From: Candidatus Phyllobacterium onerii
Lineage (GTDB): Bacteria; Pseudomonadota; Alphaproteobacteria; Rhizobiales; Rhizobiaceae
Assembly (NCBI RefSeq): GCF_028331445.1
Contig: NZ_JAQMHX010000014.1
Location: 1 to 64,000 of the forward strand
Reading direction: 5' to 3'
DNA: 64,000 nt
The translations under genes and the position numbers were made by a program. The notes beneath the pieces are model-generated. The model saw only the letters and a program-made list of their open reading frames with translations. It made no database searches and was not told the origin of the DNA. Shown here one piece after another: positions 1,556 through 21,722 of the stretch (its first letter is position 1; the number at the start of each line of letters is the position of its first letter).

Positions 1556-2302
1556 CTAGTGGCGTACCATTCCCGCATCGACATTCAGCGTCTGGCCCGT
1601 GATCCAGCGCGCATCTTCGGAAGCAAGAAACGAAACCACATCGGCGATATGTTCAGGCTGCCCTTTGCCTTTAATCGCCTGAAGCATCTCGACGAAGCCG
1701 AACGCCTCATTGTGCGGGCTTGCCTTGACGCCATCGCTCTCGATTAGCCCGGGCGTCACCGCGTTTGCCGTGATGTTGTACTTGCCGAGTTCCGTGGCGA
1801 GCGCCCTGGTGAAGCCGATGACGCCGCCCTTGGCCGCGACATAGGCCGCCATGTTCGGCGTGCCGGCAAAGAAGGTGTTGGATGCGATGCTGATCACCCG
1901 CCCGGCCTTGCCGGCGTCGCGCATCTGGTCAGTTCCCGCGCGGCTGACGATGAAGGTGCCGGTCAGATTGACGTCAATGATCTTGCGCCAATGTTCGAGA
2001 TCGACGTCGTCCCAGGCAATGAACGGCACGATGCTGGCATTGTTGACCAGGATGTCGATGCCGCCCGTCAGCGTCTGGATTTCGGCAAACAGTGCCTTAA
2101 CAGATGCCGGATCGGAAATATCCGCGGCGATCGCCTTCGCTTTTCCACCGATCGATGCGGCGGCCGCCTTGGCGCCTTGCGCGTTGATGTCGCTGACGAT
2201 GACGGTCGCGCCATCGGCGGCCAACCGCGCGGCGATGGCCTTGCCGATGCCTTGTGCGGCCCCGGTAACCAGCGCCGTCTTCCCCGCAAACCGTTCAGTC
2301 AT
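1556..2302 (-). CDS. Pyridoxal 4-dehydrogenase (SDR family, NAD+)
   Basis: This enzyme oxidises pyridoxal (as its hemiacetal) to 4-pyridoxolactone with NAD+, the step after pyridoxine oxidase and transaminase in B6 degradation. The 248-residue protein has the classical short-chain dehydrogenase layout: TGAAQGIG cofactor loop at residues 13-20, NNAS at 87-90, catalytic Ser141, Tyr154 and Lys158, and the C-terminal [14 protein letters not shown]. It closely matches what I know of the Mesorhizobium loti enzyme (mlr6807), including the length. ATG 2302 was chosen because GGAG lies 7 bases upstream; longer in-frame starts lack a site. It is the last gene of the operon and follows the transaminase by 37 bp. 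Confidence 0.95.
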
Positions 2303-2339
2303 GTCCATGCTCCATGATTTGTGATCCTGTGAATTCATC

Positions 2340-3521
2340 TCATGCGTCGGCGTCGATAATGGCGAGCGCCGCCTCGATGCCTTTGCCGATCGCGAGCTTC
2401 TGGCCCAAAGCATTCATGGCGCCGCCAAGCGCCGTCAGCGCGGCGATCGCATAGATCGGCTGGGCGGTCGGGCCCATATGGCCGATGCGCGTCAGCTTCC
2501 CCAATGTTTCGCCGCGGCCCGACGAAAACACCACGCCGTAGTGGGCGCGCGCGACCCGTCGAAGCGCCTTCTCGTCGACACCTTTAGGGGCGCGAACGGC
2601 GGTCGTGGTTGGCGATGCGATCCTGTCGCTGGCCGCCCAGATCGACAGGCCCATCGCGGTGACGCCCGCGCGCATTGCCTTGGCAGTAAGCGCGTGGCGC
2701 GCCCACACCGCCTCCGGTCCCTCATCGAGATAAAGGTCGAGTGCGACATCGAGCCCGTTGATCTCCGAGACCGACGGCGTGAACGGAAACGGCTCGTTCC
2801 TTGACCACGCATTTTGCCAGTCGACGATGCTCAGCATCGATGCGCGCGGCGCCAGAGGATTTCCCTTCATCTTGGCCCAGGCCCGCTCGCTGACGCCCAT
2901 CATGGTGAGGCCGGGAGGCGCGCCCAGGCATTTGTTGGGGCCGGTGACATAGATATCGGCCTTGCAATCCTCCGGATGCGTCTTCATGCCGCCAAAGGAC
3001 GAGACGGCGTCGACGATGAGATAACCGCCATGCGCCGAGACCAGCGCGCCGATGGCATCGATCGGATTAATCGTGCCAGACGGCGTGTCATGATGGCACA
3101 CGGAAACGATCGTGATTTCCGGATGCGCTTTCAGCATTGCCTCAACCTCCTGCGGGTCGATCGCTTCATTGTAGGGCACCTCGATTTCGATGAGATGTGG
3201 CGAATAGCGCTTCGCCCAATAGCCAAACCCCTTACCGTAAACTCCGGAGGCAAGGTTGAGCACAACGTCGTCGGGCGCGATCAGGGAGGCTGCGGCGGCC
3301 TCGAGGCCCAGTACCGGCTCGCCATGCAGAATGACCGGCTTGTTCGACAGCCGCATCGCCTTCTGCGCCTTGTCGACCACCTTCTCGTAGAGGAGCTGAA
3401 ACGCCGGGTCGTAGTCGTAAAGCACCGTGCGCCCGAGACCACGCAGCACTTCGGCATAGGCGTTCACCGGCCCCGAGGTCAGGGTGATGACCGGATCGGC
3501 GTGTTCGAGATAGCGCATCAT
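2340..3521 (-). CDS. ppaT: Pyridoxamine-pyruvate transaminase
   Basis: This enzyme transfers the amino group of free pyridoxamine to pyruvate, giving pyridoxal and L-alanine. It is unusual because the vitamer is the substrate and no bound PLP is needed. The 393-residue class V (fold type I) aminotransferase matches the M. loti enzyme (mlr6806) in length and nearly throughout. Substrate-binding Lys197 lies in GPNKCLG, Glu68 in HGEPV, and Arg336 and Arg345 in [15 protein letters not shown], all at the published positions as I remember them. The ATG at 3521 has GGAGAG 3 bases upstream. It lies between the lactonase and dehydrogenase genes of the same pathway. Confidence 0.97.
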
Positions 3522-3545
3522 CTTCTCTCCTGATTTGGCGGGCGA

Positions 3546-19987: not shown

Positions 19988-20095
19988 GTTCGTCGCAAGA
20001 CTGTGGTTCCGTCTGAAGAGTCGAAGTCCTTCATGACGTTTTGGATCGGGTATCTGCCGAACGCAAATCAGTGCGCGGGGCATTCACCATGTCGG

Positions 20096-20104
20096 TGTCA
20101 GACA
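20096..20104. promoter_or_regulatory. Candidate GntR operator upstream of pyridoxine 4-oxidase
   Basis: TGTCAGACA is the exact reverse complement of the palindrome at 19201-19209. It sits 41 bp before the oxidase start, a position where bound repressor would block the promoter. Recurrence of the same 9-mer at the two regulated promoters of one cluster is the main support. Confidence 0.6.
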
Positions 20105-20144
20105 TGCCGGCAATCGAAGCCAGCAGGTGGCAGATGGAGTGATG

Positions 20145-21722
20145 ATGACCATGGCCAATGTTGAGCGCAAACCGAATTGCGATATCATCATCGTCGGCGG
20201 TGGGTCGGCCGGCACGTTGCTTGCCGCGCGACTGAGTGAAGAGCCGAACAGTCGCGTTCTGCTTATCGAGGCAGGCGAAGAGGCGGCGGACCCCGACATC
20301 TGGAAGCCCGCTGCCTGGCCGACGCTTCAGGGCCGCAGCTACGATTGGGACTATCGCACGGAGCCGCAAGCCGGCACCGCAGGCCGAGTGCATCATTGGG
20401 CGCGCGGGCGGTTGATCGGCGGCTCGAGTTGCCTGCACGCCATGGGCTACATGCGCGGTCATCCCTCCGACTTCCAGACTTGGGTCGACGCGACTGGGGA
20501 TCGCCGATGGAGCTGGGATGAACTGCTGTCAGTTTTCCAGGCTATCGAAGACCACCCGCTTGGTGGCGACGGCATTCACGGCAAGGGCGGGCCGTTGCCG
20601 ATCCATTTACCGGCGGACGAAGTAAGTCCGCTTGCTCGTGCCTTCATCGAGGCAGGCGCAGCATTGGGTCTGCCTCGCCTTGAGGGTCACAACAGTGGAG
20701 AGATGATCGGTGTCACCCCGAACTCTTTGAACATTCGCGACGGGCGGCGGGTTACGGCGGCGGACGCGTGGCTCACAAAGGCCGTTCGAGGCCGCAAAAA
20801 CCTAACCATCCTTACGGGATCCCGGGTGCGGCGGCTCAACCTGGAGGGCAATCAGGTCCGCAGCCTCGAGGTCGTAGGGCGACAGGGTCCGGTCGAAGTC
20901 TTTGCGGATCAAGTTGTACTTTGTGCCGGCGCGCTGGAAAGTCCGGCTTTGCTGATGCGTTCGGGCATCGGCCCGCACGATGTACTCGACGCCGCAGGCG
21001 TTGGCTGCTTGATCGACATGCCTGAAATCGGTCGAAACCTTCAGGACCACCTGCTTGGTGCCGGCAACCTTTATGCGTCACGCAAGCCGGTTCCTCCATC
21101 GCGCCTCCAACACTCGGAGTCGATGGCCTATATGCGAGCTGACGGGCTCACCGCTACTGGTCAACCCGAGATTGTCGTTGGTTGCGGCGTCGCGCCGATC
21201 GTGTCCGAACGCTTTCAGGCGCCTGCCGCTGGCACTGCATATTCACTGCTGTTCGGGATCACCCATCCAACGAGCCGCGGCAGCCTACGCATAAGTGGGC
21301 CGGAGGTCGGCGACCGGTTGATCATCGACCCGGCATACCTGCAAACCGGTCGGGACCGCGAGCTGTTTCGCCAAGCTCTCTCGGCTGCACGGACAATCGG
21401 GCATAAAGATGAACTCGCCGGCTGGAGAGAGCGCGAACTCCTGCCAAGCACCCTGAACAGTGCGGCCGAGATGGACGACTTCATCGCGCAGTCCGTCATC
21501 ACACACCATCATCCCTGTGGTACTTGCAGGATGGGTAATGACCCGGACGCCGTCGTTGATCCAAATCTACGACTCAAGGCGCTCGACAATCTTTTTGTAG
21601 TGGACGCGTCAATTATGCCCAACCTCACCGCAGGACCGATTCATGCTGCGGTGCTCGCGATCGCCGAGACCTTCGCTCGATCGCACCGGAAAATGGACCC
21701 GGAAAGAATTCCGATGCGATGA
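20145..21722 (+). CDS. pno: Pyridoxine 4-oxidase (GMC, FAD, O2-dependent)
   Basis: This enzyme oxidises pyridoxine to pyridoxal, reducing O2 to H2O2, the entry step for pyridoxine. The 525-residue GMC protein has the FAD-binding motif IIVGGGSAGTLLAARL, the signature GRLIGGSSCLHAMGYMRGH, CAGALESPALLMRSGIGP and an active-site His cluster (about 454-456) in ITHHHPCGTCRMG. It matches the crystallised M. loti enzyme (mll6785) almost throughout. Start 20145 was chosen for GGAG 5 bases upstream among several nearby ATGs. The last dozen residues (after AETFAR) differ from what I remember because the frame runs into an antisense GMC remnant. Confidence 0.93.
   Translation: MTMANVERKPNCDIIIVGGGSAGTLLAARLSEEPNSRVLLIEAGEEAADPDIWKPAAWPTLQGRSYDWDYRTEPQAGTAGRVHHWARGRLIGGSSCLHAMGYMRGHPSDFQTWVDATGDRRWSWDELLSVFQAIEDHPLGGDGIHGKGGPLPIHLPADEVSPLARAFIEAGAALGLPRLEGHNSGEMIGVTPNSLNIRDGRRVTAADAWLTKAVRGRKNLTILTGSRVRRLNLEGNQVRSLEVVGRQGPVEVFADQVVLCAGALESPALLMRSGIGPHDVLDAAGVGCLIDMPEIGRNLQDHLLGAGNLYASRKPVPPSRLQHSESMAYMRADGLTATGQPEIVVGCGVAPIVSERFQAPAAGTAYSLLFGITHPTSRGSLRISGPEVGDRLIIDPAYLQTGRDRELFRQALSAARTIGHKDELAGWRERELLPSTLNSAAEMDDFIAQSVITHHHPCGTCRMGNDPDAVVDPNLRLKALDNLFVVDASIMPNLTAGPIHAAVLAIAETFARSHRKMDPERIPMR

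Follow-up and report, generated by a model that had tools for sequence, protein, structure and literature searches.

Very probable acquisition of a complete island for M. loti-type vitamin B6 degradation by a Phyllobacterium-like genome from a Mesorhizobium-like donor

The window (the whole 64,000-nucleotide stretch of DNA that was analysed) carries a complete Mesorhizobium loti-type vitamin B6 degradation island, which the Phyllobacterium-like genome very probably received in a single block from a Mesorhizobium-like donor. The B6 degradation route itself is already known; the island is a tested example of an entire route for vitamin catabolism that has crossed from one genus to another, bordered by its own first and last genes, and its two unexplained genes, coding for DUF1185 and PEBP proteins, become testable.

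Gene content and predicted route

Encoded in the interval 1556-21722 are nine enzymes, a GntR regulator, two ABC importers and one protein each of the DUF1185 and PEBP families. The frames are open at the coordinates listed below, where the predicted functions and the matches on which these are based are also given.

1550..21722, no strand: transferred unit; DNA similarity to Phyllobacterium and Mesorhizobium copies stops outside
1556..2302, minus: pyridoxal 4-dehydrogenase (PLDH, SDR); NF047923 423.8 bits, cut-off 325; PDB 3ndr, E 3e-148
2340..3521, minus: pyridoxamine-pyruvate aminotransferase (PPAT); NF046070 655 bits, cut-off 600; PDB 2z9u, E 1.9e-248
3546..4352, minus: 4-pyridoxolactonase (metallo-beta-lactamase fold, HFHFDH); NF047925 489 bits, cut-off 325; PDB 3aj3, E 9e-180
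4400..5335, minus: putative B6 ABC transporter permease 1; NF047928 563 bits, cut-off 465
5339..6433, minus: putative B6 ABC transporter permease 2; NF047929 565 bits, cut-off 400
6430..8001, minus: putative B6 ABC transporter ATPase; NF047930 838 bits, cut-off 670
8082..9179, minus: putative B6 ABC transporter binding protein, BMP/PnrA type; NF047927 504 bits, cut-off 400; PF02608
9673..10683, minus: second ABC importer, NMT1/THI5-like binding protein; PF09084, E 9e-42
10721..11536, minus: second ABC importer permease, SaoP/TauC/SsuC type, start uncertain; NCBIfam matches below cut-off
11533..12435, minus: second ABC importer ATPase, nitrate/taurine type, start uncertain; TIGR01184, E 1e-64, below cut-off
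12494..13423, minus: 5-formyl-3-hydroxy-2-methylpyridine-4-carboxylate (FHMPC) dehydrogenase; NF042925 561 bits, cut-off 500; PDB 4om8, E 7e-187
13420..15063, minus: putative 4-pyridoxate dehydrogenase (4PADH, GMC flavoprotein); PRK02106 choline-dehydrogenase subfamily above cut-off; synteny
15169..15891, minus: 3-hydroxy-2-methylpyridine-4,5-dicarboxylate (HMPDC) decarboxylase, class II aldolase family; PDB 2z7b "Mlr6791", E 2e-138; PF00596
15962..16420, minus: PEBP (YbhB/YbcL family); PF01161; TIGR00481 above cut-off
16454..17047, minus: DUF1185 (PF06684); proposed enamine/enol deaminase-tautomerase helper after ring opening
17118..18257, minus: MHPCO, ring-opening flavin monooxygenase; PDB 3alj, E 7e-256
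18299..19162, minus: (E)-2-(acetamidomethylene)succinate hydrolase (AAMSH), alpha/beta hydrolase; PDB 3kxp, E 6.7e-165
19198..19212, minus: operator-like palindrome GAATGTCAGACAATC, conserved, in the gntR/AAMSH intergenic region; TTGACC (19189-19194) adjoins
19316..19987, plus: GntR/FCD transcriptional regulator; PF00392 and PF07729; divergent from the main gene run
20127..21722, plus: pyridoxine 4-oxidase (PNO, GMC); PDB 3t37 and 4ha6, E 0

The enzymes number nine and not eight, as in the original prediction, because the interval includes pyridoxine 4-oxidase (20127-21722), and the gene list given there also omitted seven transporter genes and the regulator found within the interval. Its further claim that every step from pyridoxine and pyridoxamine to succinic semialdehyde is encoded is borne out, with all nine enzymes found (4PADH by family and synteny). 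Eight of them have as best PDB sequence matches the solved structures of the corresponding B6-degradation enzymes, which we take to be M. loti proteins (Mlr6791 identified by its entry name, AAMSH by its paper); PDB 2z9u is presumably M. loti PPAT, though the entry title reads aspartate aminotransferase. By homology, the M. loti MAFF303099 pathway, presumably loci mlr6785-mlr6807, shares all nine enzymes with the island, eight through the solved structure of the corresponding enzyme. The ninth enzyme is probably 4-pyridoxate dehydrogenase, as judged from its GMC family, position and synteny. It shares 96% identity with the syntenic gene in M. loti CJ3sym, has no NCBIfam model of its own and no close PDB match, the top one being oxygen-dependent choline dehydrogenase.

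Residues were checked against lists for PPAT and AAMSH and at seven positions of MHPCO, the motifs of the remaining enzymes being only glanced at. The seven MHPCO positions, presumably at or near the pocket, are invariant in 49 of 49 genomes. The predicted intact transaminase residues Glu68, Lys197, Arg336 and Arg345 are all present in PPAT (window ORF numbering). AAMSH retains S106, D130, R146, R167, Y168, R179, S230, H258, Y259 and E262, the ten residues listed in the available part of PMC3538738, where the M. loti structure is described.

The order AAMSH-MHPCO-DUF1185-PEBP-decarboxylase-4PADH-FHMPCDH occurs in 54 of 64 named loci, M. loti CJ3sym included, and so agrees with the gene order predicted from M. 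loti, the strain compared being CJ3sym and not MAFF303099. The other ten loci comprise three cut by contig ends (L089, L094 and L095), one with an insertion (L046) and six reduced clusters. The present island differs from that of M. loti in its Phyllobacterium-like host and in its flanking DNA.

The reaction steps follow the established M. loti route. PNO would oxidise pyridoxine and PPAT would transaminate pyridoxamine, both giving pyridoxal, which PLDH would convert to 4-pyridoxolactone; PLDH, the lactonase, 4PADH, FHMPC dehydrogenase and the decarboxylase in turn would lead to 3-hydroxy-2-methylpyridine-5-carboxylate. MHPCO would open the ring and AAMSH would then yield succinic semialdehyde, acetate, ammonia and CO2, with a succinic semialdehyde dehydrogenase from elsewhere in the genome (above its cut-off at G000:C3:68638) supplying succinate to the TCA cycle. 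The host is a soil bacterium related to Phyllobacterium, and the island measures about 20 kb. The presence of pdxJ in the host (G000:C3:194950) suggests that B6 is probably synthesised by the host itself and that the vitamin degraded is taken from outside.

Uptake of B6 or its derivatives would occur through the BMP-type importer and the accessory THI5-like importer. All four subunits of the former exceed the curated cut-offs of the NCBIfam "putative B6 ABC transporter" models NF047927-NF047930 with no difference seen, the substrate being putative in those models as well as here, and in 29 of 64 loci the binding protein of the second importer has more than 60% identity. The conserved palindrome would be the site of action of the GntR regulator. 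TGTCNGACAA is found in 48 of 56 gntR/AAMSH intergenic regions and CAATC-N1-5-TTGAC in 52 of 56 (shuffled sequences give 0.02 and 0.04 of 56, respectively). Control DNA of 290 kb contains the operator-like motif 6 times, and when one mismatch is allowed the window has 5 sites against 3.16 expected, which is not above chance. From the sequence we infer the enzyme activities, growth on B6, the importer substrates and the regulator-operator pairing.

Transfer between genera and the borders of the block

The original prediction that the route moves as a unit is upheld by a conflict between the cluster tree and a core-gene tree, the comparison proposed there, by AU tests and by DNA borders. With gyrB as the single core marker and trees of a quick, non-mixture type, the host of the window groups with three Phyllobacterium (100*), whereas the tree of the seven-gene cluster places the window's cluster nested within Mesorhizobium. 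Identity between the window and M. carmichaelinearum is 95.9% for the cluster and 80.6% for gyrB. On the cluster tree the AU test rejects the ten Mesorhizobium as a single clade (p 2.5e-6), a clade that gyrB supports at 98.6, and on gyrB it rejects a group, present in the cluster tree, that unites three Phyllobacterium with two Mesorhizobium (p 3.7e-7). The same test on the cluster tree does not reject a single Phyllobacterium clade (p 0.12); Phyllobacterium may therefore have received the island once or more than once, and two separate transfers into it are not claimed.

The left border is placed where the blastn block begins, at 1550-1566 in eight copies, and the right border where it stops, which is at 21680-21832 for six copies out of seven; in the nearest copy (KW56) the block continues to 22082. 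These similarity limits lie close to the first and last stop codons of the island, and the flanks are unrelated among the copies compared. The GC content of the island is 61.4%, with four host stretches at 57.2-58.8% and four Mesorhizobium loci at 61.8-63.1%.

Vertical descent of the island from an ancestor of the family, with slow enzyme evolution explaining the closeness to Mesorhizobium, would fit the stability of the gene order over many genera and the agreement of the gyrB and cluster trees on several small groups, among them two Martelella, Corticibacterium with Oryzicola and Pseudohoeflea with L077. This explanation is already disfavoured and appears highly improbable given the position of Phyllobacterium inside Mesorhizobium with the core-gene arrangement rejected, the unrelated flanks, the GC content unlike that of the measured host stretches, and two placements found in the cluster tree only, Microvirga next to Chelativorans (99*) and Roseovarius amid relatives of Hoeflea (87). 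A further alternative is that the block is an integrative element or composite transposon that has kept the ability to mobilise itself, which its sharp borders and the insertion sequences on both sides might suggest: to the left lies a stretch of about 210 bp, 82-86% similar to plasmid DNA partly annotated as IS30, and to the right an ISL3 transposase 3.2 kb away. We regard a self-mobile element as unlikely, as the remnants belong to different families (the left flank being limited to 1.55 kb by the start of the contig), border stretches 1401-1620 and 21601-22400 share no direct or inverted repeat of at least 11 bases (two shared 10-mers are taken as chance), and a Pfam scan of 14 flank ORFs, a subset from flanks cut on the left by the contig end, shows no integrase or relaxase. 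The mobile-element debris on both sides, offered originally as a sign of mobility, is thus reduced to two unrelated IS remnants; with these unmatched, and no repeat or integrase seen, the unit moved but the debris does not reveal how.

No tRNA is present in the window. Carriage on a plasmid was considered and rejected: in a near-identity search with window positions 1-25000 no record covers 80% and the best covers 3%, the 30 plasmid matches listed of 135 being flank or IS30-like pieces, and all plasmid matches to MHPCO have less than 60% identity. The vehicle and date of the transfer are matters of inference.

DUF1185, PEBP and the reduced clusters

The DUF1185 protein exceeds the Pfam gathering score for PF06684 and has the same fold as solved members; a Pfam search at E 0.001 matches PF06684 only and no Rid family. 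In 30 of 40 sampled neighbourhoods of DUF1185 genes, several from one genus, a partner gene of other ring-breakdown sets is present (UPF0280, amidohydrolase or alpha/beta hydrolase, queries picked after viewing ten plasmid neighbourhoods), compared with 0 of only 20 controls scored for the same three families. The other ten neighbourhoods lack all three, two of them being cut by a contig end. The PEBP query has no match in the 40 neighbourhoods, and no proposal for PEBP function survived.

We propose that DUF1185 may speed the conversion of enamine to aldehyde after ring opening, in a role like that of RutC in uracil breakdown. After ring opening and amide cleavage it would turn a beta-enamino diacid into a 2-formyl diacid with release of ammonia or an amine; alternatively, it would tautomerise an enol, which then decarboxylates to the semialdehyde. 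Candidate substrates are 2-(aminomethylene)succinate (B6), its N-methyl form (trigonelline) and the glutarate homologue (reductive nicotinate breakdown). DUF1185 would thereby supply a step drawn as spontaneous in N-heterocycle breakdown, with a RutC-like function in a separate hexameric family, and a function would be assigned to a family whose members many genomes annotate as "amino acid synthesis". The trigonelline (tgn) pathway of Acinetobacter baylyi, with ring opening by a flavin oxygenase followed by a hydrolase, likewise has a DUF1185 protein, TgnF; oxygenase type and substrate differ from those of the B6 route, and no PEBP was seen in the tgn-like neighbourhoods scanned, unlike in the B6 island. 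The Rut pathway shows the succession of ring opening, hydrolysis and enamine deamination that is proposed here: according to the accessible text of PMC8113886, RutA/F of E. coli open the uracil ring, RutB hydrolyses the product to 3-aminoacrylate, and RutC, the 3-aminoacrylate deaminase, acts on this intermediate, whose deamination was formerly presumed spontaneous. TgnF is said, second-hand in the part of PMC7913881 available, to stimulate TgnE-dependent succinic semialdehyde oxidation. No literature linking DUF1185 to B6 or nicotinate was found in a search mostly of sources other than subscription journals.

DUF1185 and PEBP may instead be regulatory or structural passengers, not catalytic in the route, a reading to which we give a little less than even weight. 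The accessible text of PMC3538738 describes a reaction in which AAMSH forms succinic semialdehyde, acetate, ammonia and CO2, neither protein taking part, and the DUF1185 protein of the 7-hydroxycoumarin cluster, HcdD, had no effect in the authors' trials as far as the available part of PMC7913881 reports. The substrate of HcdD has no ring nitrogen, which counts against the enamine idea, and one locus (L082) has MHPCO and AAMSH with neither DUF1185 nor PEBP in its 21 kb. Arguing against passengers are the MHPCO-DUF1185-PEBP order, kept in 61 of 64 loci, the non-random neighbourhoods of DUF1185, and fourteen DUF1185 positions, eight of them charged or His, that are invariant in 82 of 82 rows across contexts.

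DUF1185 is retained beside the genes for ring opening even in the absence of PPAT and FHMPC dehydrogenase. Some genomes have MHPCO, AAMSH, DUF1185 and PEBP with a regulator and an importer, and neither PPAT nor FHMPC dehydrogenase is above cut-off in the whole genomes with reduced clusters, four of the six being MAGs of unstated completeness (the genome-wide search covered these two enzymes of the route). Tentatively, and as a joint reading that is somewhat improbable as a whole, DUF1185 would be the missing enamine/enol catalyst and the reduced cassette a minimal ring-opening module, either the base of the full island or its trimmed remnant, which would import 3-hydroxy-2-methylpyridine-5-carboxylate or a close relative directly. 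Pathway II (the 5-pyridoxate route) is also considered for the reduced clusters. The contigs of L080 and L090 stop shortly beyond PEBP, so that neighbours are seen only upstream there. Among 20 neighbouring ORFs scanned in L085, L087, L090 and L091, three had no match at the limit set, and the others include two transposases, ABC importer parts, a GntR regulator and a TPR protein. L085 has a thioesterase-like protein and a phosphotriesterase-related protein; phosphotriesterase relatives include lactonases, so this neighbourhood cannot be called lactonase-free. L087 has two proteins with weak likeness to Baeyer-Villiger monooxygenase, and L091 a Gfo/Idh/MocA oxidoreductase.

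Gene content of the island

The host genome comprises 6.0 Mb in 65 contigs, one of which, the 110-kb contig C14, begins with the 64-kb window. The host gyrB shares 99% identity with its counterparts in Phyllobacterium sp. KW56 and P. bourgognense. The island at 1556-21722 is counted as 19 genes with the following arrangement.

Minus strand, part 1: pyridoxal 4-dehydrogenase, pyridoxamine-pyruvate aminotransferase (PPAT), 4-pyridoxolactonase, a BMP-type ABC importer (four genes), and a THI5/NMT1-type ABC importer (three genes)
Minus strand, part 2: 5-formyl-3-hydroxy-2-methylpyridine-4-carboxylate (FHMPC) dehydrogenase, 4-pyridoxate dehydrogenase, 3-hydroxy-2-methylpyridine-4,5-dicarboxylate (HMPDC) decarboxylase, PEBP, DUF1185, the ring-opening flavin monooxygenase MHPCO, and (E)-2-(acetamidomethylene)succinate (AAMS) hydrolase
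Plus strand: GntR/FCD regulator and pyridoxine 4-oxidase

The pathway itself was known before; the island is a complete and intact copy of it that reached a new host by block transfer. For eight of the nine enzymes the PDB sequence search found a solved structure of the corresponding enzyme (E-values 2e-138 to 0). These structures are from M. loti, as the name shows for Mlr6791 and PMC3538738 for AAMS hydrolase. 4-Pyridoxate dehydrogenase is a GMC flavoprotein for which the PDB sequence search found no near solved relative. Four enzymes pass the cut-offs of NCBIfam equivalog models specific to their B6 function, and each of the four subunits of the BMP importer lies above the cut-off of a model named "putative B6 ABC transporter." The four PPAT residues claimed in the original prediction to be intact (Lys-197, Glu-68, Arg-336, and Arg-345) are all found at those positions of the window ORF. 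In PMC3538738, the genes of the B6 degradation route of M. loti are all identified already and the AAMS hydrolase products are given as succinic semialdehyde, ammonia, acetate, and CO2; the AAMS hydrolase residues named there are all kept in the island protein (10/10). Elsewhere in the host a succinic semialdehyde dehydrogenase above its cut-off is located at contig 3 (G000:C3:68638), and pdxJ is present on the same contig (G000:C3:194950).

A second PPAT-like gene occurs in the host (G000:C1:514865-515953, L155:9806-10972), 53% identical to the island PPAT and scoring 617 bits, above the NCBIfam PPAT cut-off, with ABC ATPase-like matches less than 20 kb away. Each of the three further Phyllobacterium genomes searched also has a second PPAT match above the cut-off, and M. 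escarrei has two.

Borders and transfer of the island

Comparison of a cluster gene tree with a core-gene tree, as the original prediction had suggested, reveals that the two conflict in the AU tests as computed, the comparison using a single core gene (gyrB) and quick trees. The gyrB tree groups the window host with three Phyllobacterium (100*), and the cluster tree (seven concatenated proteins, 43 genomes) nests the window inside Mesorhizobium. Identity to M. carmichaelinearum is 95.9% for the cluster compared with 80.6% for gyrB. Constraining the cluster tree so that ten Mesorhizobium form one clade carries a penalty of 242 log units (p-AU 2.5e-6), and imposing on gyrB the cluster-tree grouping of three Phyllobacterium and two Mesorhizobium one of 498 (p-AU 3.7e-7). 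Block transfer of the island is well supported. A forced grouping of the four Phyllobacterium in the cluster tree is not rejected (p 0.12), and therefore one or more transfers are possible. Only in the cluster tree does Microvirga adjoin Chelativorans, with Roseovarius placed among Hoeflea relatives.

DNA similarity to eight Phyllobacterium and Mesorhizobium copies begins on the left at 1550-1566, at most 10 bases from the pyridoxal dehydrogenase stop codon. On the right, six of seven copies lose similarity at 21680-21832, close to the stop codon of pyridoxine oxidase (21722), and KW56, the nearest copy, remains similar up to 22082. A further 37 and 42 bp just outside the border are common to the window and two Phyllobacterium copies. 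When copies are compared with one another (five pairs per side) the block stops at about these same border genes, two Phyllobacterium copies having ~200 bp more in common on the pyridoxine oxidase side. The island GC content is 61.4%, with 57.2-58.8% in four host stretches, 61.8-63.1% in four Mesorhizobium loci, and 51.3% in the AT-richer right flank. Border repeats, tRNAs, and matched IS pairs were looked for around the island and none was found.

Elsewhere in the window an ISL3-family transposase ORF lies at 24968-26713, and a plasmid of Phyllobacterium zundukense carries an element with ~96% identity to this one. An RND-type efflux pair (HlyD-family membrane-fusion protein and AcrB-family transporter) occupies 40081-44411, a LacI-type regulator-like protein is encoded at 30637-32049, and more ABC importer genes (solute-binding proteins, ATPases, and permeases) are found at 30637-38686, 47088-48614, and 57441-58589.

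Conserved order, reduced clusters, and the intergenic motif

Named genomes searched with MHPCO yielded 64 loci, of which 54 keep the seven-gene order and 61 the MHPCO-DUF1185-PEBP run; these counts include L065 and L092 despite split frames. In L065 the FHMPC dehydrogenase frame is split and in L092 (Marinicella sp. W31) those of several genes, through either sequencing error or decay; the L092 gene order is similar to that of Martelella loci. The BMP binding protein falls inside the fetched stretch in 54/64 loci and the THI5-type binding protein in 29/64; the latter is absent from 27 of the 54 loci with the full order, which makes the THI5-type importer accessory. PPAT is above its cut-off in 42 of the 49 genomes searched, and FHMPC dehydrogenase in 11 of 397 genomes of the order-wide sample.

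The testable remainder of the case is DUF1185, PEBP, and the reduced cluster. Four loci (L080, L085, L087, and L090), all from MAGs (two Pseudolabrys, one Rhodospirillales, and one unclassified Pseudomonadota), contain gntR, the AAMS hydrolase gene, ABC importer genes, MHPCO, DUF1185, and PEBP. In L085 and L087 the search of ~9 kb beyond PEBP detected, at its limit, only distant SDR/ABC relatives and none of the remaining island enzymes, and in L080 and L090 the contig stops soon after PEBP. Neither PPAT nor FHMPC dehydrogenase is above its cut-off in any of six genomes, these four together with the isolates L082 (Bradyrhizobium) and L091 (Tardiphaga). Seven MHPCO positions, which we take to be at or near the pocket, are identical in 49/49 genomes, including those with reduced clusters. 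The reduced clusters are read as a module beginning at the ring-opening substrate. Neither DUF1185 nor PEBP was found nearby in L082. L091 lacks the DUF1185 gene that normally follows MHPCO, but immediately past gntR, and on the same strand as gntR, it has another with 42% identity; in the DUF1185 tree this copy joins one adjoining an amidohydrolase and an FAD monooxygenase, a placement unsure given the long branch. The full B6 cluster L046 carries extra ABC importer genes between the AAMS hydrolase gene and MHPCO, the position of the importer in the reduced clusters.

In the 153-bp region between gntR and the AAMS hydrolase gene, GAATGTCAGACAATC (19198-19212) adjoins TTGACC. The motif TGTCNGACAA is present in 48 of 56 such intergenic regions (0.02/56 in mononucleotide shuffles) and CAATC-N1-5-TTGAC in 52 of 56 (0.04/56), with the close variant TTGTCTGTCAATC in three reduced clusters (L080, L085, and L090). 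Because six copies of TGTCNGACAA also turn up in 290 kb of control DNA, and the number of one-mismatch matches in the window is not above chance, the evidence lies in the fixed place of the motif and not in its rarity. The copies are related by common ancestry, and the conservation therefore represents footprinting rather than independent repetition. The GntR protein probably binds this conserved motif.

A possible role for DUF1185

In nitrogen-ring breakdown in three contexts (B6, trigonelline, and reductive nicotinate) a beta-enamino diacid arises that must lose its nitrogen to give a 2-formyl diacid. DUF1185 could be a convergent catalyst of this step, and would then be a counterpart to RutC. 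The DUF1185 residues K87, E98, H99, R113, D161, E167, R179, and R183 are invariant. PMC8113886 describes RutC as performing the equivalent nitrogen loss in uracil breakdown, a step earlier presumed spontaneous. Enamidase is part of nitrogen-ring breakdown chemistry in PMC7356986, and no NCBIfam model named the amidohydrolases in DUF1185 contexts as enamidases. HcdD, the DUF1185 protein of a 7-hydroxycoumarin cluster, acts in a pathway whose substrate ring has no nitrogen and had no effect in its authors' trials; this case points either to a broader enol/enamine tautomerase role of DUF1185 or away from the enamine-catalyst idea.

Paired DUF1185 genes are located beside 6-hydroxynicotinate reductase and UPF0280 genes in nine loci (L098, L175, L177-L180, L189, L191, and L192), with each copy of the pair in a different clade.
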